Positions 2,029 through 33,362 of a stretch of 64,000 nt of DNA are shown here, piece after piece. This DNA is from Spiroplasma corruscae (lineage in GTDB: Bacteria; Bacillota_I; Bacilli_A; Mycoplasmatales; Mycoplasmataceae). The notes beneath the pieces are model-generated. The model was given only the letters and a program-made list of their open reading frames with translations. It ran no database searches and had not been told where the DNA came from. The first letter of the stretch is position 1; each line of letters begins with the position of its first letter. A program made the position numbers and the translations under genes. The DNA lies in the NCBI RefSeq assembly GCF_002237575.1, contig NZ_CP022535.1, positions 744,001-808,000 on the forward strand. The letters are read 5' to 3'.

Positions 2029-2913
2029 TTATGATATTGTTATTTTTTTACTGAAAATTTTAGTACTAATACTTTTTTTAATAGTTTTATTATTTGAGGT
2101 TGTTTGACTTAGATCAAATTTATAGATAAATAAATCAAATGTATTTGCTCCTTTTGTACCTTTAATTGTCACAATATGCCCACTACCAGTAAAATCACTT
2201 TTATCATAATTAGATTTAAAATTTTCTGCATCTTTAAAAATTTCATTAAATTTAGTTGTAAATGAATTGAAAGGTTCGATTGATCTTGATTGTGGTTCTG
2301 TCATATAAATCATACTTCCCTCAAAACCATCTATTTCATATGTTACATTTTCTTCTTCTGTAGGATTTTCAGTTAGTTTAGCAGTATCTTCATAACTAAC
2401 TGATAGTTTTTTGTCACTTATTTGAAGTGCTTTTTTTTCATCACTATTATCATTTATTATATTAGTAATTTCAATTTCTTCAGCTGTTTGTAAATAACTG
2501 ATTATATCAGAATCTGTTTTACCTTCTTTATATTCTAATTGTTTAATAACTGTTATTGAAAAACTAGTATCAACATCACCATACTTTACTTTAACTTGCG
2601 TAGTTCCAGCTTCTTTTGTATTAATTGTTAAATTAAATTCCCCTTTTTTCTCAGCATCTTTATCCATACTACTTATTACTGTTGCTATTTCATCGTTTGA
2701 GTTTTCAACACTAATAACTGAGTCTACTTTTGGATTATTTACTTTAACTTGCAATATTTTTTCAATGTTTACATCTAATTCTTGATTATCTATTCCGACT
2801 ATTGTAGTCTTACTTTCTTCTTTTGAACTATTATCATTCCCACAAGAAATAACAGTTGAACTAGTAGTAACAACCATACTTATTGATGTTAAAATTCCTA
2901 ATAATTTTTTCAT
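2029..2913 (-). CDS. lipoprotein with Ig-like domain and a repeated-family domain
   Basis: Surface lipoprotein, 294 residues. Signal peptide with lipobox VISC, Cys24 acylated. The start is ATG 2911-2913 because GGAGGATT sits just upstream; an ATG eight codons earlier lacks such a site. Residues about 35-125 look like a bacterial Ig-like beta domain. Residues about 125-294 begin with EGKTDSDIISYL and resemble the lipoproteins at 3127-3705 and 12601-13173. So it is an Ig-like domain joined to a lineage-specific domain. Function unknown; surface exposure makes adhesion or antigenic roles possible. A terminator follows. Confidence 0.85.
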   Translation of the reverse strand: MKKLLGILTSISMVVTTSSTVISCGNDNSSKEESKTTIVGIDNQELDVNIEKILQVKVNNPKVDSVISVENSNDEIATVISSMDKDAEKKGEFNLTINTKEAGTTQVKVKYGDVDTSFSITVIKQLEYKEGKTDSDIISYLQTAEEIEITNIINDNSDEKKALQISDKKLSVSYEDTAKLTENPTEEENVTYEIDGFEGSMIYMTEPQSRSIEPFNSFTTKFNEIFKDAENFKSNYDKSDFTGSGHIVTIKGTKGANTFDLFIYKFDLSQTTSNNKTIKKSISTKIFSKKITIS

Positions 2914-3126
2914 ATAATCCTCCGTGCATAAATGCAATATAATTATATAATATTAAAAAGTAAATATAAACTTTCTCATATAAGTAAAAATTGAGTTATC
3001 TTATAAAAATTATTTAATAATGGGTTTTTAATAAGCTAAAAAATAAATTAATATTTCTAAATAATTTATATTTAATAATAATATTTCTATATACTTATTA
3101 ATTTTATAAACAATGTCCAATATTAA

Positions 3127-3705
3127 TTAAATATTAATTGTTTTAGAATATATTTTTGAACAATCAGATAAAACTGAACTTTTTTCATTAATTATAGTTA
3201 CTTTTGAAATAACTTTTGTTATATTAATATCAAAACTTGTATCTCCTTTATAACCAAATATTGATGTAAAATAATATGTATATACTTTTTCTTCTTCGTT
3301 CAAATCAACAATTTCTGTTCCATTTAGATCTTTTAATTCTGTAAATAAAGCCTTAAAATCATCTGAAAGATAATTTTCACCTGTATCAAAATTACTTATA
3401 AATAACACGCCTTCAATATCTAGTTTTCAAAATAGTATAAACTCATTAAAACTTTCGCTTGGAATAATATATTCTTCACCCAACTTATTATTTTTATTAA
3501 CATTTAGAGTGCCACTTTCTGAAGCTATTATTATTTTTTCACTATCCTTTAATAACGAAATCAAATCACTATCATTTTTCCCTTCAACATAATTTAATTG
3601 ATTTACGTCATTGGTTTTATCATCACAAGAAATTACACTTAAAGTTAGACCACCTGATACAGCAATTAAATTGAAACTTGTTAATATAGTTAAAATCTTT
3701 TTCAT
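3127..3705 (-). CDS. lipoprotein of the EGKxDSD family
   Basis: 192-residue lipoprotein with lipobox VISC (Cys27) after a hydrophobic signal. ATG 3703-3705 follows AAAAGGGTAATTT. An in-frame TGA (3427-3429) is read as Trp in FILFWKL. The mature part begins with EGKNDSDLISLL and ends with a GYKGDTSFDINITK stretch. Both match the lipoprotein at 12601-13173 (NGKSDRDVISIL; GNKGDSKFNINVT) and, more weakly, the C-terminal half of the one at 2029-2913. It has no Ig-like domain. Function unknown. Confidence 0.85.
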
Positions 3706-3767
3706 AAATTACCCTTTTATTCTTTCCAATTTAATTATACTAATTTATACAAAGGTTACCTATAAGT

Positions 3768-4757
3768 TTAATAACTTAAAAACTTTTTATTTTTCTTATT
3801 TAATAAATTAAGTTTCTTAGAAATAAAAATAGAGCTTTTATTTATTGGTTTAACAAGTAATAAAGCAAACAAAATTGAAAATAAAAATGTTAACATTGCT
3901 AATATAAATATTTGTAATTGAATATCTAAAAAACTAATATATTTTAATAAATATTTATCGTTAATTTCTTGAGCTAAATAATGATATAAATAAACATATA
4001 GCATTGAAGAACCTAAATAATTTAATAACTTATTATTAAACGGTTTTAATGAAACTACAATTATAAAAACTAATATTGAAAATATAGCGTTTAATATACC
4101 TATTTGTTTATATACAAAATCATAACTAGTATCTAGATTTATGAATACTATTAGTATTCATAATAAACTAACAATTAACAATATTAAAACAAATTGAAAG
4201 ATATTAGATAACTTAAAGTGCATTTTAATAATGCCGCCAACAATATATAATAAAACCATTGCAACAATATTAGTGATTCCAAAATATTGACCATAAAAAT
4301 AATTACTTGTAAATTCAAGTATCATATATAGTACCAAAACACATATTAATAAATAGTTTTTATTAAAACTATGTAATATTTTATTTAATATTGGCATTAA
4401 CAAGTGAATAACTAGTAGTGCTCAAATATACCACCAATCTCTACCACCAAGCAATAAATGAATAAATGGAATTTTATCTCTTGTAAAGGAATATATAATA
4501 CAAGCTAAAATAAAATTTATGATTCAAGATATTAAAATTGTAATTATGAAACTGCTGTTATTATATCTTTTAGTATCAACTTTTAAATAACCGGTTATTA
4601 GAATAAAAAATATTGTCGCACCAGTAACTCATGGGCAGAAATACTTAAAATATCAAACATCACTATATGACATATTATAAATAGGTCCTGCTTGGTGTAA
4701 TAGAATAACAAATAATGACATTACAATTCTAAGAATTTCAATATTACTATTTTTCAT
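3768..4757 (-). CDS. acyltransferase family 3 (OafA/YrhL-like) integral membrane protein
   Basis: Predicted membrane O-acyltransferase that transfers acyl groups, often acetyl, to a carbohydrate. 329 residues with about ten hydrophobic segments. The N-terminus NIEILRIVMSLFVILLHQAG carries the family pattern with Arg10 and active-site His21. Aromatic GGRDWWYIWALLVIHL is also typical. Several Trp are TGA. Starts at ATG 4755-4757. The gene stands alone between a lipoprotein and a divergent hydrolase. Together with the deacetylase at 1109-1867 it suggests glycan tailoring at the cell surface, but that link is inference. Confidence 0.8.
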
Positions 4758-4950
4758 AAACTTACCTTTATCTATATATAATATAATTTTTAATATTATT
4801 GATAATTATAATAAAAATTATAAATATTAGATATAAATAACTCAAATTTATTTAAGTTAATTTTGTTTATTGCTAAGTAAACTTATATAATAATTTATAA
4901 TTAATAAGATAAGAAAGAAAGAGCTTTGTTCTATAAAATGAGGGATAATT

Positions 4951-5967
4951 ATGTCTAATAATATGAAAAGGTATAAATACAACATACTAAGAGTATTACT
5001 TACAATATTGTTATTACCCTACATTTTAATAAAATCAAATAAGTATTTTAAGTCTTTTAAGGATTTTTGTTATACATACCCTAAGTTTGGAAGGTATGAA
5101 GGTAATAATGAATACTATAAACAAATTCCAACTGATACAAATACATTAGAATACCATTATTGAGATTTAAAAAAAATGAATATAAAAATTAACTCTTTTC
5201 AAAAAAATGAATTAGTTGAATTTAGTTTAGAAACAAAAAAAGGAACTATAAGTTGTTTAAAAGCACAAGTTAATAATTCAAATAAATGAGCAATTGGTTT
5301 ACATGGATGGACTGAAGATAAATATTTAGCACTTAGACTTGTGCGTCATTATTATGAAAATGGATATAATATTTTAACTTTTGATGCTTACGCGCATGGA
5401 AAAAGTTATGGTAAATTTACTGATATAGGTTACTCTTCAATCGAAATGATTGATGAGATAATAAACTTTATTTCTAAAGAAAATGAAGTTAAATCAATTG
5501 GGTTAATTGGAAATAGTATGGGTGCTTCAACATCAGTTTTTTACTCACAAACTGGTAAGTATAAAAATAAAATTAATTGAGTGATATCAGACTGTGGATT
5601 TAGTAATATTAAATTACAATATAGATACTACATACAAAATAACCTATTCAAAAAACCTTGATGATTAATTAGCCTTGGATTTATAAAAAAATTTAGTAAA
5701 ATAACAAAAACAAATCAAAATAAATATAACTTATTAAAACTTATGAAATTAAATTCTACAACACCTATTTTATTTGTTCACGGTAAAGGAGATAGTTTTA
5801 TAAGTTATGAAATGAGTTTGGATTTATATAATTATAAAATAAAAAAAGAAACATCAATACTTAGTGATTTATGAACACCAGATGGGTCTAAGCATGTTTA
5901 TTTGATAAGTGACTACCATAAAGAGTATTTAGAAAGAACTTTAGTGTTTTCTAAATCAAATAATTAA
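4951..5967 (+). CDS. alpha/beta hydrolase with N-terminal membrane anchor
   Basis: Serine hydrolase, 338 residues. A hydrophobic helix at about 12-28 anchors it. Oxyanion motif LHGW (117-120), nucleophile elbow GNSMGAS with Ser189, acid in FVHGKGDSF and His in SKHVYL give a complete triad. Similar proteins in mollicutes are annotated as esterase/lipase or peptidase-like hydrolases; the substrate is unknown. TGA Trp occurs several times. GAGGGATAATT precedes ATG 4951. It converges on the lipoprotein gene ending at 5974, leaving six bases. Confidence 0.85.
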
Positions 5968-5973
5968 AGTTAT

Positions 5974-6948
5974 TTAATAAAATTTATAATTAAAACTTCC
6001 TGTTATATATTTTGATTCTTCTTTTGCAATTAAATCAATTGATTCATAGTACGCTTTATCATTATCACCAATATTATTTTGGCTATTTTGATTATTATTA
6101 GGATCTAAATTGTATTTAATTATAAAATCAACATCATTTTTTAAGAAGTTATATTGTTTATAATTGTCAAATGCATCAATTACTCATTTATTTAAATCGT
6201 TTCTACTAAATGGGAACTGTGGTCTTTTGGTATTTTGTAATACTGATTGTGCAAACTTATTTATGTTTAAAACACTAAAATCAATATTATAAACATTGCC
6301 ATTTACTAATTGAGAAGTTGCTTTTGATTTCATATCAATTTTTGCCCCTTTTATAAAGTGACCATCAACAAGATACTTAGCATCATATTCAAAGTAAACA
6401 TCATTTTTTAGAAAACTCTTTATATCAGTATATTTAATTGGTCTATACCATAAAGCTAATAATTCTTCTGCTTCATCAACTGTTGTTCCAGTTGTTAAAT
6501 GCGTTGGTTTTCCTTTTTCATTATATAAATGTGAATAATCTGTAATAAAACTTTTTGTCTTACCTTTAACTTTCCTATTATTTTTAGTAGCTTCAAAATA
6601 AAACTGTATGTTTGAAAATAACATTTTTGAGTCAAACACATAACCTGGTGTTGTATTACTTTTTAATGTAATATCAAAAACTAAAGTTGGTAAATCGTCA
6701 ATTATTTTAAGAGTTTCAAAATATTCGACTAATCTTTCATCAAACTTCTTATATATATCATCAAGAGTGTTAACTCCACCTTGAAATTTAAAATCACTTA
6801 CATCCATATTTGCAAGATCAACTGTATCATAAAGTGGATTACTTTCTTGTGTTTCATTATCATCAATAATAAAACCGCATGATACAGTAGAAATTAAAGA
6901 TGATGATAGTGCAGGAACTAATAATAATATACTTAATAACTTTTTCAT
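5974..6948 (-). CDS. lipoprotein, unknown function
   Basis: 324-residue lipoprotein with lipobox TVSC (Cys24). One TGA (6184-6186) is read as Trp, after which the frame continues about 70 residues with an Asn-rich stretch to TAA at 5974-5976. No similarity to the other lipoproteins here is evident beyond the signal peptide, and I do not recognise a domain. The mature part is polar with mixed alpha/beta character. AGAGGTATAT precedes the ATG. Confidence 0.8.
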
Positions 6949-7027
6949 ATATACCTCTAATATTGTATTTATTATAAACTTATTTGATTATATTTATTAA
7001 TATTAGTATTAATCAATTTAAATTATA

Positions 7028-7396
7028 TTAATATTTGTATTCATCAAACTCCGTTTCATCAACTATATATTTTTTATTACTTTTTTTAATTTCTATTATT
7101 AGGTAATTCTTAGATCATAACTCTGCTAATGTTCCTTTTTTTAAAGATAATCTAATGATATCAATTATTATAACTACTATTGTTAAATATATAAATAATG
7201 ATAATATCTTAAATAAAAATAGACTAAACTGATTTTTTGATGAATAGACTATATTGAGACTTCTCATTCCTAAACTTTGTTTAGATTTAGAAAAACAATA
7301 AATTAAATATATTATATATATTCCAAAAGAGACTATAAAAAATATTATATCTATTAACTTTGACCCCAGTCTACTTCAAAAACCTGCAATTCTCAT
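7028..7396 (-). CDS. RDD-family membrane protein
   Basis: 122 residues. The N-terminus MRIAGFWSRLGSKLIDIIFF and the later SKQSLGMRSLNIVY match the RDD pattern (Arg/Asp in the first helix, then a KQSLG-M motif), followed by a second transmembrane helix and a charged tail. RDD proteins are small multipass proteins, some acting as ion antiporters; the role here is unknown. Two TGA codons encode Trp. It lies 26 bases downstream of glyA on the same strand and is probably co-transcribed. Confidence 0.75.
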
Positions 7397-7422
7397 ATAA
7401 TATTCTCTTTAAATAACATTGC

Positions 7423-8652
7423 TTAGTATCTTATATTCTCATATATTGGGAACTTTAAGCAAAGTTCATTTACTTCCTTCTTTAATATTTCGATATCCAC
7501 ACTCTTTTTTAATGCTTTTACTATTATATTTCCAACCTTTATAAATTCTTCTTCTTTAAAACCTCTTGTTGTCATTGCAGCGGTACCTACTCTTAGACCA
7601 GATGTATTAACAGATGATTCTTGATCAAATGGTAATAATTCTTTATTACAAATTATACCAATTGATTCTAGTATTGATTCAGCTTGTTTACCTGTCAAGT
7701 TAAAAGTAGATTTAACATCGAAGTTAATTAAATGATTATCAGTACCATTTGTTAGTACAAAGAAGTTATTATCTATTAATACTTTAGCAAGAGTTTTTGC
7801 GTTTTTAATTACTTGTTTAGCATATTCTTTAAAACTAATGTCTTTAGCTTCTAATAATGCTTGTGTTTTACCTGCTATTAAGTTTTCAAGTGGTCCACCT
7901 TGTATACCAGGAAAAACAGCACTATCAACTTTCTTTGCATATTCTTTTTTACAAAGAATCATCCCTCCTCTTGCTCCTCTTAAAGTTTTATGAGTTGTTG
8001 TTGTAACAACATCAGCTACAAGACAAGGGTTTTGATGTTCTTTGGCAGCAACTAATCCAGCAATATGTGCCATATCAACCATTAGATATGCACCTACTTG
8101 GTCAGCTATTTCTCTAAATTTTTTAAAATCTATTTCTCTTGAATAAGCACTAGCACCAGCTATTATCATTTTAGGCATAAAGCTTAATGCCTTTTCTTTT
8201 ATTTCATTATAATCAATATAATAATCTTTATCACTAACTCCATAGAATTCAAAATTATAAATTTCACCAGATGAGTTTAAACTAAAACCATGAGATAAAT
8301 GACCACCAGCTTTTAAACCCATTGCCAATACTTTATCACCAGGTTTTAGAAATGCTTTATATGCTGCTGCATTTGCTTGACTTCCAGAATGTGGTTGAAT
8401 ATTAACATGTTCTGCTTCAAATATCTCTTTAGCTGTTTCAATACCAAGTTGTTCGACTTCATCAATAAAGTTGCATCCTCCATAATATCTTTTGCCAGGG
8501 TAACCTTCACAATATTTATTTGTAAATATTGAACCATTTGCGATCAACACTGCTTCTGATACATAGTTTTCACTTGCTATTAATTCAATATGATTTTGTT
8601 GTCTCTTTAATTCCCCATTAAGTGAGTCAATTAGTTTTTTATCTAGATTCAT
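7423..8652 (-). CDS. glyA: serine hydroxymethyltransferase
   Basis: PLP enzyme converting serine and tetrahydrofolate to glycine and 5,10-methylene-THF, the main cytosolic one-carbon source. 409 residues, full length for the family. Conserved ELIASENYVS near the N-terminus, GYPGKRYYGG, VDMAHIAGL, and the PLP lysine in TTTTHKTLRGARGG (Lys222). TAGGAGAAAT precedes ATG 8650-8652. An RDD membrane protein follows in the same direction. Divergent from the membrane protein at 8746. Confidence 0.98.
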   Translation of the reverse strand: MNLDKKLIDSLNGELKRQQNHIELIASENYVSEAVLIANGSIFTNKYCEGYPGKRYYGGCNFIDEVEQLGIETAKEIFEAEHVNIQPHSGSQANAAAYKAFLKPGDKVLAMGLKAGGHLSHGFSLNSSGEIYNFEFYGVSDKDYYIDYNEIKEKALSFMPKMIIAGASAYSREIDFKKFREIADQVGAYLMVDMAHIAGLVAAKEHQNPCLVADVVTTTTHKTLRGARGGMILCKKEYAKKVDSAVFPGIQGGPLENLIAGKTQALLEAKDISFKEYAKQVIKNAKTLAKVLIDNNFFVLTNGTDNHLINFDVKSTFNLTGKQAESILESIGIICNKELLPFDQESSVNTSGLRVGTAAMTTRGFKEEEFIKVGNIIVKALKKSVDIEILKKEVNELCLKFPIYENIRY

Positions 8653-8718
8653 ATTTCTCCTATTTAATATTAATAATTAAATATATATTATCACTATAAA
8701 CATATACTATTTTTAAAA

Positions 8719-8730
8719 GTTTGTTATAAT
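8719..8730 (+). promoter_or_regulatory. extended -10 promoter of the 8746 gene
   Basis: TATAAT at 8725-8730 with the extended -10 TG one base upstream, ending 15 bases before the ATG. No good -35 is visible, which is usual for extended -10 promoters. The transcript leader would be very short and carries AAAAAGGTG as ribosome binding site. Confidence 0.55.
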
Positions 8731-8745
8731 ACTAAAAAGGTGACT

Positions 8746-9453
8746 ATGAATAAGTTAAAGAAAACAAAAAAAATATTCATTACTTTATTAATGTTTTTTT
8801 TCATAACATATTTTTTAAGTTGCATAACTACTAAATTAGTACTCTTTAAAGAGTTTTATAACTACATATTTAACTTTAGTTTAATATTGTTTTTCTTAAT
8901 TATTATCTCTTTCTTTGCATTCATTATTTCAGAGTTCTCAATAATTATAAAAAAAATGAATGATATGAGATTCGATATTGAATTTAAAAATATGAATAAA
9001 ATAATGTATTTTAAAAATAATTTAAGAACTTTTATGACTTTTATTAAAATAGCACTACCAATAATTATTTTAAAAATATATTTCTTTTTTAACTCTTATA
9101 ATCAAGATTATAAAGTTGAACTTTTTGCAACTATTACCTTTTTAATAGTATTGGTAGTAATATTATCTATAATTATTTTTTCATTATTAGTTAGTATGGA
9201 ATGTATGATAAGAAATTATAATGTATACAATCTTGATTGATCAATATTTAATCAAAATGATATTTTATATTTTGATAGATATATTGTTTTAATAATTGAT
9301 TATGATTTTAACTATTCAAACCAAGTTTTTACTGAGAATTTACTTATATTTATTAATAGAACTAAAAAAGAAATTGATATTATCACTAATATAAAACAGT
9401 CAATATTTCTAAATGTTGAAAAAAAGGCAACATGCCCACCTATCTCTCTTTAG
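8746..9453 (+). CDS. four-helix membrane protein, unknown function
   Basis: 235 residues. Hydrophobic segments at about 10-30, 40-65, 105-125 and 135-160, then a soluble tail of about 70 residues ending CPPISL. Start taken as ATG 8746 (a GTG six bases earlier falls inside the AAGGTG ribosome site). One TGA is read as Trp near residue 165. The family is not recognised. Followed 39 bases later by the duplicated lipoprotein pair, so it may head that transcript. Confidence 0.7.
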
Positions 9454-24426: not shown

Positions 24427-24458
24427 AAAATAAACTTGATTTTATCCAAGTTTATTTT
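24427..24458 (-). terminator. intrinsic terminator of the glycosylasparaginase/PTS operon
   Basis: 12-bp perfect stem (24427-24438 and 24447-24458) with an eight-base loop, followed on the minus strand by long T runs. The stop codon of the IIA gene (24452-24454) lies inside the stem. Confidence 0.85.
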
Positions 24459-24769
24459 GATATTTTTTTGTATATATTAATTAATTTCTTTGCCATTATA
24501 ATTATTGTTTGAGTATTAAGCATTTGATCCTCTGCATGTACGAACAACAATTTAAAAGGGTGTTTAATTCCTTGTGCTTCTTGAACAATAACTTCCATAT
24601 GTTCTTGTTCTGCTAATATCATTAACTCTTCAGATTTTTTAAGTAAAATTTCAGCATCTTTAAAGTTATCATTTTCAGCTTCATCAATAGCAAGAATAGC
24701 ATTTGATTTGGCCTCTCCAACATTAGATATAATAGTCATACTAATCTTTTCTCAATCAATTTTATTCAT
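24452..24769 (-). CDS. PTS lactose/cellobiose-family IIA component
   Basis: 105 residues, all-helical IIA of the lactose/cellobiose/chitobiose PTS class. The phosphorylated histidine is in FVHAEDQML (His78). The first ten residues include Trp6 encoded by TGA; starting at the next Met would lose the conserved N-terminal helix. ATG 24767-24769 overlaps the stop of the asparaginase gene (TAATG). It works with the IIB at 29521-29823 and the IIC at 25730-27673 of the same operon. Confidence 0.92.
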
Positions 24770-25728
24770 TATTCAATTTTTTCCCTTCTTTTTTTATCAT
24801 AATTTTCTAACCATTCCTTAGAAGGGATGGTAATATCTATTTTACTTAAGTCATCTGAAGGGTTAGCTAAATAAATTTTTACTTCTTGACTATGATTACC
24901 AACAGCAAAAGAAAATTCACAATTAGTTCCTACACCTCAATTACCATCTTTATCAAGTGCAACTATTGATATTGCACCACAACTTCCATTATATTTATTT
25001 AATGTATCATTAAACTCCTTGATAACTAATTGCGGAGCATCTTTAACACTAACACCACTTCTCATTTTTTCAACTACTTGAAATGATAAACAACCTTTAA
25101 ATATGTCTTCACCAAGACCAGTAGCAGTTGCTCCACCAATATTTGAAACGCAATAAAATCCACTTCCAGCTATTGGCGAGTCTCCAACCCTACCTCTTTT
25201 CTTCATAAATAATCCACTAGTTGAAGTTCCTACAAACATATTATTATCAACATCTAGTGAAACCATTCCAACAGTATCATGACCATCATACGGAGAAAGA
25301 TTTGGATTTTCCTTCATTTTTTTCAGTTTTAAATCATAATGCTGAATTGCTCTACCACTTAACATATCTTTCATTTCAAAACCGTTATCTCTTGCATATT
25401 CTTCTGCACCATTTCCGACTAGAAATGAATTAAATTTTGAGTAAGACAATTCTCTAGCTAATTTAATTGGGTTTTTAACGTTTTTTACACCAGCAATTGC
25501 CCCAACTTGATAAGTATTTCCATTCATAAAACCAGCGTCTAGTTCAACTTCACAATTTTCATTCGGAAGTCCACCATATCCCACAGATTTAAAATATGGA
25601 AAATCTTCAATATAAGAAATTGCTCTAACAAGAGCATCACCTTTTGGATCACCTTTTTTTAATAAACTAATATTATCTCTAATGGATTCATATGCCATTC
25701 TTCAAGTTCCTATAAATGCATATTTCAT
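24769..25728 (-). CDS. N4-(beta-N-acetylglucosaminyl)-L-asparaginase (glycosylasparaginase)
   Basis: Ntn-hydrolase that cleaves the GlcNAc-Asn bond of degraded N-glycoproteins. 319 residues, normal length. The autocleavage/catalytic site is DGHDTVGMVSLD, Thr152 becoming the N-terminal nucleophile. Other family signatures are GRVGDSPIAGSGFY and a GATATGLGEDI segment. MKYAFIGTW precedes the more obvious Met; the ATG at 25726-25728 lies 1 base after the IIC stop, with GAGGATTAAA as ribosome site. No signal peptide, so the substrate must enter the cell, presumably through the PTS made by the flanking genes. Confidence 0.93.
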
Positions 25729-25729
25729 T

Positions 25730-27673
25730 TTAATCCTCAACTTTTACTACTTTCAATATCTCACCTTTATTAATTACTTTATATTCATTTATATTATTCG
25801 CTTTTGCAATTCTAGTTGTCATATCATCCATTTTTTCTTCATTTAGAGCAGTTGCAACAGTTTTACCATTAATTCTAATTTTATAACCACCATATTCAAC
25901 TAAATCAACAGTTAAAACTTTATCTGCCTTTGTAATAACTTTAATATTTTCATCTAGTTTTCTTAATGATTTTTCTTGTTTTTTAACCATTTTTAATTCA
26001 TGTAATATTAATACCTTTTCTTCTGTTGGTAACTTACTAATTCTTTTTCTTTCTGCTATATTAGCTTTTCGTAGTTCTTTTTTAGCAACTTTTCTTGCTA
26101 AACTCTCTTCTCTTGCGACTTTATCGTCATTTAATACTGCTTGAATAGCATCTTTTTTAACCATTCCTTGATCAATATATGATTTAACATTTAAGTTAAA
26201 ATGATATTTATTTGCAATTATTACGAATGGAATATATCAAACAAAGGCTATGACCAGGCAAAACCAAGATAACACCATTGCTCGCCAATCAAGACCAGTT
26301 GACAATAAAGCACCAACTCCTGGAGGCAGTGTTCAAGGAACCATTATATATGATTTATTCACTCAACCCAATGGACCTACAAATAACCAAGCAACAAATG
26401 TTGTTAACGGCATTGCAAACATTGCTGCAACTCCATAAATAGGGTGTAGCATAATTGGTATACCAAAAGTTACAGGTTCGTTTATTGAGAATATTGCTGG
26501 CACTCCCGCCAATTTTGCAACATCCTTTTGTTCACGCACTCTACCAAATATAGCAATAGCAATTAATAAGGCACCAGTGTGTCCTCAACCTGTTGTTTGA
26601 GAATAACTTTCTAAAAATTGAATATTTACAACCCCTAATTCTCCTGCTGCATCAGCTGCATCATATCCCATACTTGCAAATGCTTGTGCGTTTTGTACAA
26701 ACATTTGTAATAAGAATGGTAAGAATGCACCATTCACAACTGAAGATCCATTTAATCCAAAAAATCAAAAGAATCCTACTAAAAATTGATAAAGCATTCC
26801 AAAACCAAGTCCTACATTATTTCCAGAAATAATTGCTGTTATTGGTGCAGAAACAGCTTTATAGAATAAACCTACTAAACCATATTCTCCACCAGCTAAT
26901 ATTACACTTCCAGAACTGCTAGTAATATCTCAATTAGTATACTTACCAATTGATCAGGCCGCAGTATTAATCCCTGATACAATTATTAATACCATTGCAA
27001 CTGGAACTAATAATGAAAAACCTGTCGCAACCATTGGTGGTACTGATTTTGGCATTCTTATTAATAACTTCTTATTGTTTGCAAAGAATTTATACAATTC
27101 AATGACCAAGAATGTTTGTATTATTGCTGCAAGCATTCCTTTTGAATCGAAGAAATAGTTAAAATATTTACCAGAACTTGTAAAAGTAGCCGCAGTTATT
27201 AAGAATAACACTAAGTTAAAGATAGCAACAAACATTGGGTCTTTTAAACCTCTTTTTTCTGCATATATATAACCTAACATCGAAGCAATCATAATTGAGA
27301 AAGTCCCCATACTATAATCGAATATAGTTTGAAAAATCTTTTCACCAATTTCACTTACTACATTTCAAGAACCATTTAATACTCAAGATTCAGCATTAGT
27401 ACCTGAAGCATATTCGATTGTTACATTACCAGTCGCTTTTGCAAGTAATCCTAGTAGAGAGGTTTGTGTATTACCTCCAGCCCCAAATATAAGTATTCCT
27501 AAAAGAAAAGCTATGGACCCACCAATAATTATTGGTGTTAAGATTCCAAATGCATCACGAATGGCTGTTAAATGTTTTTGACTTGCAAACTTTGTCATTG
27601 CTGGCATTAGTTTTTCATCAAATCAATATTTGGCACCTTTCCCTTCCGGTTTAATTTTACGATTCTTACCCAT
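25730..27673 (-). CDS. PTS IIC component (cellobiose/chitobiose class) with C-terminal extension
   Basis: Sugar-transporting membrane subunit. 647 residues against about 420-450 for the family. Residues 1-500 are the usual IIC with about ten membrane segments and FSINEPVTFGIPIMLHPI as the sugar-binding motif. Residues about 504-647 are an added cytoplasmic tail: a Lys/Glu/Arg-rich, coiled-coil-like helix (about 510-590), then a small compact segment with LVEYGGYKIRINGK. AAAGGGGGGATT precedes the ATG. Substrate class is read from the lactose/cellobiose-type IIA and IIB and the glycosylasparaginase between them. Confidence 0.9.
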
Positions 27674-27687
27674 TAAAAATCCCCCCT

Positions 27688-29022
27688 TTATTTTTTTAAT
27701 AAATAACTAATCAAGCCTCTTACCATTACCCCACTAGATCTATTATCAATAACAGCTGTTCCAGCAATGTCTAAGTGAATAAAATCAGTATTAGGTAATA
27801 CAAACTCTTGCAAGAACGCTGCTGCTTGTGAAGAACTACCATGTCTTGATTTTATTGGACTATTAGTAATATCTCCTAATTCAGCACCCTGAACTAACTT
27901 TCTATTTTCTCGATGAATTGGTAATAACCAAACCTCATCGCCAGTCTTATCAACAATCTCTTTAAAATTATTTGCTAGTTTATAATTATTAGTAAATAAA
28001 CCGGTCATATATTTTCCTAATGTTATTGTGATTGAACCAGTTAAAGTAGCGATTGTTATTATTTCTTTACATTTATATTTATCTTGTGCATAGCTCATTG
28101 AATCAGCCAACACTAATCTTCCCTCAGCATCAGGATTATCTATTTGAACAGTTTTTCCTGAATATGATTTTATAACTTGGCTTGGTAGTATTGAATTTTT
28201 ACCGAGTATGTTCTCACTTAATGGTATTACACAAACTAAATTAATTTTTGCTTTTGTATAAACTAAGTATTTAAATACCCCAACAACAATAGCTGCTCCA
28301 CATTTGTCTAATCGCATCGTTCTAATTGACTCACTAGACTTTAATGCGTATCCTCCTGCATCAAAAGTTATTCCTTTTCCAATTAATGAAATATAATCAT
28401 TATTTGAGTCATTATTATACTTTAGTTCTAATAGGTGAGATTCATTTTTTGAATTTGCACCTACAGCTGCAATTAAATTTAAATTATTTTTAACTATATC
28501 ATCATTGTTAAGTATGCTAACAGTTACATTTTTATCTTTTAAATCTAATAAGTTTTTTGTTTTATTTATGAATCCAATTGGAGTACCATCATCATATGAA
28601 TCCGTATCAGCTAAATTTTTAGATTCATAAACAACTTTTACTAAATTATTTATTTGAATAATAGTATCAATGTAATTATCAATGTCATCTGATACAAATA
28701 TGATATTAATATCTGAATTTTTTTGATTTGTTTTTTTTGTATATAAGTTCCAATAATTTTTATAAATCGTTTCAATTATAAAAATTAGGGAGTCATTGTT
28801 TTTATTTCTAACATAATTGAGATCAAATTGTACTACATCTTTTTTATTTAATTTTATTGAACCGATTCTTTCATAAACTTCTGAAATATTTTCTGTGTAA
28901 TTTAAAGATAGTTCATACATATTTAAATTATCAAAAAATTGTAAGGAATTCGACTCAGTTTGTTTTATTGTTATTAAATTTATATTTTTTTTATTTTGCT
29001 TATTAAACTGAATTGATATCAA
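27688..29022 (-). CDS. pepA: M17 leucyl aminopeptidase
   Basis: Cytosolic dinuclear-metal aminopeptidase removing N-terminal residues from peptides. 444 residues. Metal and catalytic residues are visible: Lys216 and Asp221 in GKGITFDAGG, Asp239 in MRLDKCGAA, and Asp298, Glu300, Arg302 in NPDAEGRLVLAD. The N-terminal domain (1-150) is divergent. No TGA Trp is needed. It sits inside a PTS operon, overlapping the preceding gene by 20 bases. Together with the glycosylasparaginase this suggests breakdown of glycopeptide fragments. Confidence 0.93.
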   Translation of the reverse strand: MISIQFNKQNKKNINLITIKQTESNSLQFFDNLNMYELSLNYTENISEVYERIGSIKLNKKDVVQFDLNYVRNKNNDSLIFIIETIYKNYWNLYTKKTNQKNSDINIIFVSDDIDNYIDTIIQINNLVKVVYESKNLADTDSYDDGTPIGFINKTKNLLDLKDKNVTVSILNNDDIVKNNLNLIAAVGANSKNESHLLELKYNNDSNNDYISLIGKGITFDAGGYALKSSESIRTMRLDKCGAAIVVGVFKYLVYTKAKINLVCVIPLSENILGKNSILPSQVIKSYSGKTVQIDNPDAEGRLVLADSMSYAQDKYKCKEIITIATLTGSITITLGKYMTGLFTNNYKLANNFKEIVDKTGDEVWLLPIHRENRKLVQGAELGDITNSPIKSRHGSSSQAAAFLQEFVLPNTDFIHLDIAGTAVIDNRSSGVMVRGLISYLLKK

Positions 29023-29521
29023 TGTTCTTCACTTCCTCATGTATTCTTAAAACAATTTCTTTAGCTTTCTTATCAAAATTTTTATTAAAGTTCATTTTTG
29101 CAATAGTGCCTTTAAAACCATAAATTGCTCTTGGAAACTTTAATGATTCAGAAAAGTTAACTTGTGTTTTATTATTTTTAATTTTTTTAACTTCAAACCT
29201 TGTTCAATACTCAATATCATCAATTATTGTTTTTATTTCATATACTTCAAACATTTTCAGTTCAGTAATTGTAAACTTATTTCGGCTAACTTTTGACTTA
29301 AATATATCTCCTACATTAATATCCTTTATATTTCTTCAATTACCACTTTTAAAAGTACTAAATGATAATTTAATGATTCCATAAAAGCACCTATCAAATG
29401 GATATGATATGTTAAATATGTTTTTTTTAGTGTAATAACTTTTAATATTATCTATTACACCTAAATTTGAATTACCTTTAATAAAAGTATCTTTATCTTT
29501 CTTTTTAAATATTGAAAACAT
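29003..29521 (-). CDS. small START-like protein, possibly DUF3284
   Basis: 172 residues in one frame with two TGA Trp. The pattern of an N-terminal basic stretch, then beta strands (INVGDIFKSKV, KFTITELKMFEVYEI, YWTRFEVKKI, KTQVNFSES) and a long C-terminal helix resembles the DUF3284/START-like proteins that often accompany cellobiose-type PTS genes in Firmicutes and mollicutes. The assignment rests on fold pattern and context only. Its start overlaps the IIB stop (TAATG) and its end overlaps the aminopeptidase start by 20 bases. Confidence 0.65.
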
Positions 29522-29823
29522 TACTTAATTTTATCCTTAATGGCGTTAATAACTGCTTCACCATTCATTGTTCCATATGCTTTCATATCTATTACTTCAA
29601 CCGGAGTTTCTTTTGATTCTTTTAAAAATCTATTTAGTTCATAGCGAACTTGTGGACCTAAAAGAACATAGTCAACTTCATTAACTTTAGATATAGCAGT
29701 AGAAACAGGTTGTGCCCAGATTTCATAATCTAATCCTTGTTTTTTTGCAGCTTCTTTCATTTTTTGCACCATCATTGAAGTACTCAGTCCTGCGGCACAT
29801 GCTAATAAAACTTTTTTACTCAT
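29521..29823 (-). CDS. PTS lactose/cellobiose-family IIB component
   Basis: 100 residues, full length. Phosphocysteine Cys9 in LLACAAGLSTS, followed by the phosphatase-like fold ending in VINAIKDKIK. It passes phosphate from the IIA at 24452 to the sugar bound by the IIC at 25730. First gene of a six-gene operon; TAGGAGAAAAATAAAGT precedes the ATG. Confidence 0.95.
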   Translation of the reverse strand: MSKKVLLACAAGLSTSMMVQKMKEAAKKQGLDYEIWAQPVSTAISKVNEVDYVLLGPQVRYELNRFLKESKETPVEVIDMKAYGTMNGEAVINAIKDKIK

Positions 29824-29884: not shown

Positions 29885-30076
29885 ATGACTATAAAATTAT
29901 TAATTATTTTTATATGTATTTTATTAATATTACCTTTTTTTATTTGAACCTTAGTAAAATTTATTAAATACATTAAAGGTTATCAAATTTGATTTAAAAA
30001 TTTAATAAAATATAGCTTTATAACATCTTACTTATTTGCGATAATTTTGCTAATAATATTAGTATGCATAACTTAA
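29885..30076 (+). CDS. possible small two-helix membrane protein
   Basis: 63 residues with two TGA Trp: hydrophobic segment about 4-24, a basic loop with KFIKYIKGYQ, hydrophobic segment about 42-61. GAGGTAAATAT precedes the ATG. It is divergent from the PTS IIB gene with only about 60 bases between starts. No family recognised; the composition could also arise by chance in A+T-rich DNA. Confidence 0.45.
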
Positions 30077-32236
30077 CAAAAATAATACACACTAATATTT
30101 TCTAATACTATTAACTGAATTATTTTTCATAATTAGGTTTTTTTTTCATTTTTTGAAATAAATTTAATTTAAAATATATAATTTTAATATTGATAAACTT
30201 TCATTTTAATTCTATTGTTACATAAATTAATTTAGTACAGTTTAATTTAAAATTTTATATAAATTAGAGCCAATATAACCATATATAATTTATTAACTTA
30301 GAGAATTAACTTATCAACAACTTATAATTAAGTTATTAATTAATAACAATTATTTTTTTGAATGTAATAGTATTTTTTAAAATCCATATTATCAAATAAA
30401 TCATTATGTTAATAATTATGCATTGTTATTAACAATAGGACTTAAATTAATTATTGAAATGTCTTGCATGTGTTTATAAAAACCTTTATAGTCAGATACC
30501 CTACATAACCTTATTAAAGTTGATTGCGGCAACCTTGTTGTTGTAATTTTTTTTATACTTATATTATTATTACTTTATAAACAACTAATAATATAAGTGT
30601 CAATTTTTATTATTAACATTTAGTACATTATTCTTTGATTTAATTTTTAAAAGATTTTTTTGGTAATTAATAATACATCCGTTTGGTTAAACTAAACTAA
30701 TAATTTAACTCTATAATTTATTATACATTTAAATAATAATTAATTTAAGCTGAAAAAAGTTAAAGTTAAATAATTATCACAATTTCTAACTATAGTTAGT
30801 TTGTTATATTTGTATAAATAACAAGCTACTATAACACAAGTATAATTTAATGAGTTGTGGTCTTATAAAAAAAACTAATTTATGCATAACTAAACAGACA
30901 GAATGAAAGTGGTTAGATAACTATTAAATAAATTAAATAATATTAAAACTTTTGAAAGCTATTTGTATGATTTTTAGGATATACCTATATAAAACTTGAT
31001 TATATAGAAATTTTTCTCCTAGTGCTTTTATTCATAAAAACAATTGTACAACAAAAAGTAAAAAATAATAATGTACTTATTAATAATTTGTTAACTTTAT
31101 AGGGATAATTATTTTAACTACAGAATGTTTTTAAAAAGGTATTGTATTAGGAAAATAAAAACTAAAATTTAGTTAATTAAATTTAAAATAAAAGTTTTGC
31201 CTATGCACCATTTTACACACATATTTATATTAAGGAATGTGGTAAAACTTTGGTGTTATTTTAGAGTCCTGAGCATAAAATAATTAATTAATAAAATATT
31301 TTAAAATGCATATAACAATTTCGTAGGCAAATATGCTAATAATTTTAATCTCTGGTATATGTATAACAAAAGTTTATCAAATATATTAAAAATTTTTATT
31401 AAATTCAAGATTAAATGAAATGAAAAAAAGTATAATGTATTTAGAACTAAAATAAATAGAGATTTCAAAGGAAAATAATAGATTTTAATTCATTGTAATT
31501 TATTTTTTATTCTTTAAATTTTAAACTATAACAACTTCATTAATAAAAGAAAAAAATTCAATGCGTGTACTTTTTGCACACTACAAAAATATGACCATAT
31601 ATAATTAAAAGAAAAACATTGAAAGAATCAAAGAACACAGTAATATTTTCCAATACTAATTAAATAATATAATGTACTGTTTTCAATCATATCAATTCCG
31701 ATTAATTATCTGTTAAAAAAATTGCAGAAATGATAATTTTTTTAATATAGATGAATAAAAATTGTTAGTTATGGTTATACATGAGTATTGAAAAGAAATT
31801 CATACTTTTTAGATATGAATATTATTTTTAAAACCTAAAACAAAGCATGTATTATAAAAAAATATGATAACAAATATATTATTTGATGTTAATGATATTT
31901 TTAACATTATTGAAATTGAGGGTAGTAGTATTTATGAAATAATTTACTATTAAAAGAGAAAACATATTAATTCGCATCCTACAAAAATATATTAAGCACA
32001 AAAATATATTAATTAATATTTATTGAAATATAAAAGAAAAATATAATAAGTTGATATTGAATTCTTGTATTTAGTTATATATTATTTACAATTTACAAAC
32101 ATATTTTTATTATATAAGTAACAGAATATTAATAAATATTTATACAATTTTTTATTAATAATCTATTTTAGATTAATAATTATTAAAATGAAAGAAGTAT
32201 TAAATATTTATATTCCTTAGTTTAATAAGTATCTAT
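30077..32236. other. 2.2-kb gene-free, probably decayed region
   Basis: The longest empty stretch of the window. No open frame of useful length with either meaning of TGA, no tRNA-like or rRNA-like sequence, no clear repeat. One DnaA-box-like TTATCAACA occurs near 30311, alone. It separates two divergently organised sugar-uptake regions and may be the remains of lost genes. Confidence 0.5.
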
Positions 32237-32271
32237 AAAAAAATAAAAATAGAAAGACATAATCTTTCTAT
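32237..32271 (-). terminator. intrinsic terminator of the ribose-type ABC operon
   Basis: TAGAAAGA/TCTTTCTA stem (about 32250-32257 and 32263-32270) with a five-base loop and a T-rich tract on the minus strand, 18 bases after the stop codon at 32289. Confidence 0.85.
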
Positions 32272-32288
32272 TAAAAATATATATTAAA

Positions 32289-33362
32289 TTATTTTTCTTC
32301 ACCTGGTGCAAATATTAAACTTGCATCAACTTCTGTTGCATTTGTGAACTGTTTAGCAGGATTTGTAGCATCCTTTTCTTTTGCATCAATTAATTCAATC
32401 GCTTTATCAATGGCTGCTTCAACAATTTTTTTGTATTCTTGTTTTACAGTTATGTATATATGATTTCTTGAAGTGCTTGATCAAGCAGCGACATCTTTTG
32501 CAACATCGTTTGAACCATCAAAACCAGCAATAAATCCAGCATCCTTTTCATCTACTTTACTAGTGAATCAAGATTTATATGATTCTGATAAGTCAATTGC
32601 TTTTTTCATCCCTAATGCCATTGGATCGTTTCCTGCCCAAATCACATGCGCTTTTGAAGCTGAGTATTCGCCAGCTCATTCATTTGTTAGGACGTCACCA
32701 GCAGCATCTCCTGTATTTTCATTACCCTTCGCAATACTTCCTTGATTATATGAACCAGTATTTTTTCTATTTACGATTTCAATTCAATCTTCATTGTTTA
32801 AAACAAATCCTTTAAATCTTTTACGTTCAGCATCATTATCTTGATTAGATCACATCGCATAGACTTTAACTTTATTTTTTTTATTAGATTCACTTGGTAA
32901 TTCACCATATATTTTTTTATAAATTGCTTGAAACATTTTTTGACTTGCTTTTTCTTGCTCTGACACAAATGCAGCAGCACCCCTATCTGATATAGTACTT
33001 TCATATTCTGTATCTATATTTATTACAGGTATATCTTCATCTAAAGCAGGTTTAATTGCCTTGTTATTTTTTACATTTGCTGGATTTATTATTATTGCTT
33101 TATCACCTTTTGTCATAGATGACTGAACATTTGTTTGGTCTGTAGCACCACTAACATCAGCTTTAGAATCGTATGTATTTAATTGATATCCTTTTTCATT
33201 GGCATAACTTTTCCCTGCGTTCATCATATTTTGAAAATAATCATTATTGAAATTTGATATTAATAGTCCTATTGAGTTCTTATTGTCACCACAAGAAACT
33301 ACTGATGAAGCAGATGTTGCAAATAAACTTACACCTGCTAATACTGCTAATAATTTTTTCAT
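32289..33362 (-). CDS. sugar ABC transporter substrate-binding lipoprotein (RbsB-like)
   Basis: 357-residue lipoprotein; lipobox VVSC (Cys24) replaces the free periplasmic form of Gram-negatives. The mature part is a type I sugar-binding fold: IGLLISNFNNDYFQNMM, KGDKAIIINPANV, IPVINIDTEYES, VIWAGNDPMALGM, AGFDGS. These match ribose/galactose-class binding proteins. Trp are mostly TGA. TGGAGGAAAAAAT overlaps the permease stop and serves as ribosome site. It delivers sugar to the permease and ATPase encoded upstream. Confidence 0.92.

Follow-up and report, generated by a model that had tools for sequence, protein, structure and literature searches.

The type of pathway considered here is already published for the ega locus of E. 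faecalis (Combret et al., PMID 37977353), in the part of its description available to us, and for the alf-2 pathway of L. casei BL23. According to that part, the ega locus combines EgaG with Lac/cellobiose-family IIB and IIC components of a phosphotransferase system (PTS), a dipeptidase, and a GntR regulator (PMC11160706), and the ega enzymes and transporter allow E. faecalis to use GlcNAc-asparagine (GlcNAc-Asn) (PMC11160706, PMC12502629). The alf-2 pathway catabolizes an N-glycan glycoamino acid and resembles the operon described below in its cytoplasmic glycosylasparaginase (AsnA2), which is required for growth on 6'FN-Asn, and in its peptidase gene; however, uptake runs through an MFS permease instead of a PTS, the fucosidase AlfC acts first, and the kinase SugK is needed (PMC6960285). 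The chb system of Lacticaseibacillus paracasei likewise pairs a Lac/cellobiose-type PTS with the DUF3284 protein ChbD and feeds NagA and NagB, but it acts on diacetylchitobiose, which a GH170 phospho-hydrolase cleaves, and it has neither a glycosylasparaginase nor a peptidase (PMC12791066).

The operon described here lies in the window, by which we mean the whole 64,000-nucleotide stretch of DNA that was analyzed. Six minus-strand genes run from 29823 to 24452 in the order IIB, DUF3284-like, M17 peptidase, IIC, glycosylasparaginase (AGA), and IIA (Table 1), with junctions, in gene order, of a 1-base overlap, an overlap, 14 bases, 1 base, and a 1-base overlap. Reading frames were translated with code 4, in which TGA encodes tryptophan; table 11 breaks several of the operon ORFs. 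The six-gene layout of the initial annotation was recovered at the same coordinates, with Pfam support for every gene and no gap above 14 bases; its grouping of the organism with the Firmicutes needs correcting, since this is a mollicute (TGA as Trp; Spiroplasma-like) and not a walled Firmicute. The phosphorylation site Cys9 is present in IIB, His78 of IIA lies within an HAED motif, and IIC carries a C-terminal extension of about 150 aa. The M17 protein retains its metal ligands and catalytic Lys/Arg (KGxxFDxGG, NxDAEGR), and start codons at 29022 (TTG) and 29040 (ATG) are both compatible with it. Downstream of the operon is a separate trehalose-type set comprising a LacI-type regulator, a PTS IIBC, and a phosphotrehalase; together with the Spiroplasma-like identity, deduced from code 4, genome size, and lipoprotein style, this set suggests that the bacterium is insect-associated. 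A promoter scan returned matches no better than those in shuffled sequences.

Table 1. Features of the operon and of the region preceding it (coordinates in the window).
Feature	Coordinates	Strand	Evidence
PTS Lac/cellobiose-family IIB	29521..29823	-	phospho-site Cys9; Pfam PTS_IIB 4e-24
DUF3284-like protein, 172 aa	29003..29521	-	Pfam DUF3284 2e-5; conserved in three orthologous operons
M17 leucyl-aminopeptidase-type peptidase	27688..29022	-	Pfam Peptidase_M17 4e-87; active-site residues intact
PTS Lac/cellobiose-family IIC	25730..27673	-	Pfam PTS_EIIC 1e-23
Predicted N4-(beta-N-acetylglucosaminyl)-L-asparaginase (AGA, Ntn hydrolase)	24769..25728	-	Pfam Asparaginase_2 2e-60; Thr152 nucleophile
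PTS Lac/cellobiose-family IIA	24452..24769	-	Pfam PTS_IIA 3e-26; His78
RpiR-family regulator remnant, internal stop	30419..30607	-	tblastn E 4e-6

Set beside ega, as far as the available description of that locus extends, the window operon is alike in joining a glycosylasparaginase gene to Lac/cellobiose-class IIB and IIC genes with a peptidase gene alongside. It differs in containing IIA and DUF3284 genes, in lacking a GRDB-like (EgaD) gene, in carrying M17 where ega has a PepV/M20-type dipeptidase, in the regulator of its relatives (RpiR instead of GntR), and in its IIC, which belongs to another branch than the ega clade of AGA-linked Firmicute IICs. The separately assembled PTS, with an IIC outside the ega-type clade, and the M17 peptidase where PepV is usual are what is new here. 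Despite the differences in IIC clade and peptidase type, the operon most likely works like ega, and we hold with good confidence that it is catabolic for GlcNAc-Asn or for a very short peptide carrying GlcNAc-Asn.

The operon enzyme is most likely a glycosylasparaginase, with predicted activity on GlcNAc-Asn. It aligns to the Flavobacterium glycosylasparaginase (E 5e-44) with W9, T152, R180, D183, T203, and G204 all in place, Arg180 and Asp183 forming the aspartate clamp. The autoprocessing site with its nucleophile is HDT at 150-152, T152 is invariant among 85 AGAs, and the N-terminus MKYAFIGTW aligns with the mature enzyme without a leader or signal peptide, so both the intact Thr152 and the absent signal peptide noted at first stand. 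An L-asparaginase or isoaspartyl peptidase belongs to the same Pfam family (PF01112), the sole NCBIfam match is to beta-aspartyl-peptidase, although far below its cut-off, and the nearest IIC from a genome without AGA (G162, 42% identity) has PLP aminotransferase-fold and RidA genes as neighbours, a hint that other amino-acid conjugates may be the cargo of this IIC branch. However, the closest solved structures are glycosylasparaginases (E 5e-44 vs 2e-30 for the next class), the best fold matches are too, and W9, the Trp11 equivalent encoded by TGA, is kept in 85/85 AGAs; it is thus improbable that the enzyme is of the asparaginase or isoaspartyl peptidase type and the operon handles another sugar-amino-acid conjugate.

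The gene order is conserved. In a survey of 298 genomes of the order, nine had an AGA match, the window's own (G000) included, and the full order IIB-DUF3284-M17-IIC-AGA-IIA was recovered in three relatives (G100, G135, and G168), whose AGAs are 82, 67, and 66% identical to that of the window, respectively. Operon proteins share 38-84% identity across these three, with DUF3284 and M17 as low as 38-44%, so the retained order is not chance. At 66% identity or more, IIC orthologues are confined to these four of the 298 genomes, all with AGA; the next best is the 42% IIC of G162. An intact rpiR precedes the operon in the three relatives (L015, L016, L017), at the place of the remnant in the window, and expression of the window operon is uncertain because its regulator has decayed. 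About 2.2 kb upstream of the operon (30076-32289), including this remnant, contains no ORF of at least 60 aa. No AGA relative was found on viral contigs, plasmid records yielded only distant IICs (all <60% identity), and no paper in the literature collection searched joins Spiroplasma with glycosylasparaginase.

Beyond the order, we compared 84 neighbourhoods selected by AGA sequence alone, four from mollicutes and 80 from named genomes in an AGA alignment scan, the latter being those most like the mollicute AGAs rather than a random sample. A Lac-type IIC was near AGA in 57 of the 84 loci, and a peptidase (PepV, PepD, or M17) in 69. A ROK kinase was near AGA in none of the 57 loci with a Lac-type PTS vs 9 of the 27 without (Fisher p 1.3e-5, shared ancestry ignored), as would follow if phosphorylation of the sugar falls either to the PTS during import or to a kinase acting later. 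Residues that split PTS-linked from ROK-linked AGAs (R92/E92, 178, and T170/S170) were considered as phosphate-recognition residues and rejected; two ROK-linked AGAs from elsewhere in the tree (L093 and L101) retain R92, so the R92/E92 signal reflects ancestry and not function. The loci of Enterococcus dispar, durans, and villorum contain GntR, PepV, AGA, a Lac-type PTS, and a GRDB-like gene, in agreement with the ega locus in the available part of its description (PMC11160706). Providencia sp. UBA10704 has an IIC-AGA-M17-IIB-IIA operon, its M17 being 33% identical to that of the window; M17 is thus tied to AGA and PTS beyond mollicutes too.

From gene content, intact active sites, conserved order, and the NagA and NagB genes, all read directly from the DNA, we infer the substrate and its phosphorylation, and likewise the roles of M17 and DUF3284. 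GlcNAc-Asn, or a short peptide bearing it, would be released by digestion of host N-glycoproteins, and IIA, IIB, and IIC would import the glycoamino acid while phosphorylating GlcNAc, presumably at O6. AGA would then cut the amide to give aspartate and 6-phospho-GlcNAc-amine, which would lose ammonia to yield GlcNAc-6-phosphate, and NagA and NagB would convert this to fructose-6-phosphate. In the work of Combret et al. (Res Microbiol) on E. faecalis ega, the substrate hydrolysed is reportedly the 6-phosphate. NagA (281 bits) and NagB (272 bits, intact) are encoded elsewhere in the genome. The operon's six genes include no glycosidase among their ORFs and Pfam matches, and this, together with the AGA-PTS-peptidase linkage and the PTS/ROK exclusion, makes it most likely that the PTS supplies phosphorylated GlcNAc-Asn to AGA. 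The initial annotation had proposed that the PTS brings in GlcNAc-Asn as a phosphorylated compound and that AGA then cleaves it, an idea that the conserved order also supports and that NagA, NagB, and the ega locus, in its available description, further back. Its alternative substrate, chitobiose-Asn, is disfavoured, as the operon lacks a glycosidase and no GH20 was found in the genome. If this pathway operates, what is left of glycoproteins after digestion serves as food for wall-less bacteria with reduced genomes in the Spiroplasma group, which would obtain sugar, aspartate, and nitrogen from it in a single step.

The transporter itself has a separate history. The IIC tree places the window's group with the mollicute GH1-linked IICs and the G162 IIC, and 22 AGA-linked IICs, from Firmicutes and others, fall elsewhere; grouping all AGA-linked IICs in one clade is rejected (p-AU 0.0007), although long branches call for caution. 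Since the window IIC falls outside the ega clade, its PTS was assembled separately from the ega type and the ega substrate is not transferable by transporter orthology. This branching, the cellobiose-type IIC that is its only solved-structure match (3qnq, E 1e-25), and the DUF3284 protein accompanying the L. paracasei chitobiose PTS (PMC12791066) would fit a plain cellobiose, chitobiose, or beta-glucoside PTS with the AGA and M17 genes as unrelated passengers. We think this very unlikely, because the operon is without a glycosidase, AGA stays between IIC and IIA in 4/4 orthologous operons, and the PTSs to which AGA is linked come from separate lineages. The other Lac-type PTS of the genome carries a GH1 glycosidase.

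The operon M17 is a third, dedicated copy, with two further M17 genes in the genome, and probably trims residues ahead of the glycosylated Asn, freeing the amino group for AGA. The PTS might accordingly import short glycopeptides, Xaa-Asn(GlcNAc), and not free GlcNAc-Asn, with M17 trimming and AGA cleaving, a form of the same pathway that the dedicated copy, the frequency of peptidases in the compared loci, and the M17 of the Providencia operon favour. The known substrates of Lac-family PTSs, however, are small glycosides, and the peptidase could instead act on peptides entering by another route. Additionally, growth on 6'FN-Asn persisted in an L. casei pepV mutant (PMC6960285), and the peptidase linked to AGA may therefore not be essential. 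On balance we regard glycopeptide import as rather unlikely, and free GlcNAc-Asn remains our preferred substrate.

The DUF3284 protein scores 24.9 bits against PF11687, a narrow margin over the curated cut-off of 23.7. AlphaFold modelling from four sequences (mean pLDDT 82) gives it a helix-grip fold of the Bet v 1/SRPBCC type, matching many members of that group with Z of about 12 over 125-139 residues. Such folds often bind small ligands, although a common fold alone shows no function. ChbD affects growth of L. paracasei on the PTS substrate, chbD deletion giving a longer lag on chitobiose (PMC12791066), and the window protein is probably likewise an accessory of PTS use.

Mollicutes hold three makes of the PTS-AGA-peptidase module: Lac-type with M17, ega-type with PepV, and glucose-type IIBC with PepD. 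In the AGA tree, the window's group joins Mycoplasmataceae MAGs, whose AGA genes are divergent from a glucose-type PTS IIBC and a PepD-like peptidase; the remaining form, in G112, is RpiR-AGA-IIA-IIC-IIB-PepV with an ega-type IIC. That mollicutes built such modules separately up to three times, and that peptides bearing GlcNAc are taken up and phosphorylated by the M17 version, is a combined reading we consider unlikely; if true, such peptides would add a new class to the known PTS substrates. AGA has been paired with a PTS and a peptidase repeatedly and separately, and this turns the roles of the peptidase and of the DUF3284 proteins into a question open to testing. In G198, a relative of G112, the ega-type module is decaying, with the AGA gene broken by stops and short PepV-like pieces behind it (L022, 6755-7592).

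Other genes recur beside AGA. GRDB-like (glycine/sarcosine/betaine reductase B) proteins are encoded there in 35 of the 84 loci (e.g., L091, 825-1349), as in the ega locus. Of the 84 loci, 28, many of them from Firmicutes (e.g., L032, 12343-13020), have a gene for CutC near AGA; the protein is usually labelled as acting in copper homeostasis, and its position here hints that it takes part in the use of glycoamino acids. Its candidacy as a missing pathway step was rejected in mollicutes, where 20/20 genomes listed for the window's genus have it whether or not AGA is present, and no CutC-AGA link can be drawn there. In G162, the closest IIC without AGA lies beside two PLP aminotransferase-fold genes, two RidA-like genes, and RpiR regulators (L147, G162:C3:28000-43000, 2359-9368); this PTS perhaps serves another sugar-amino acid conjugate.
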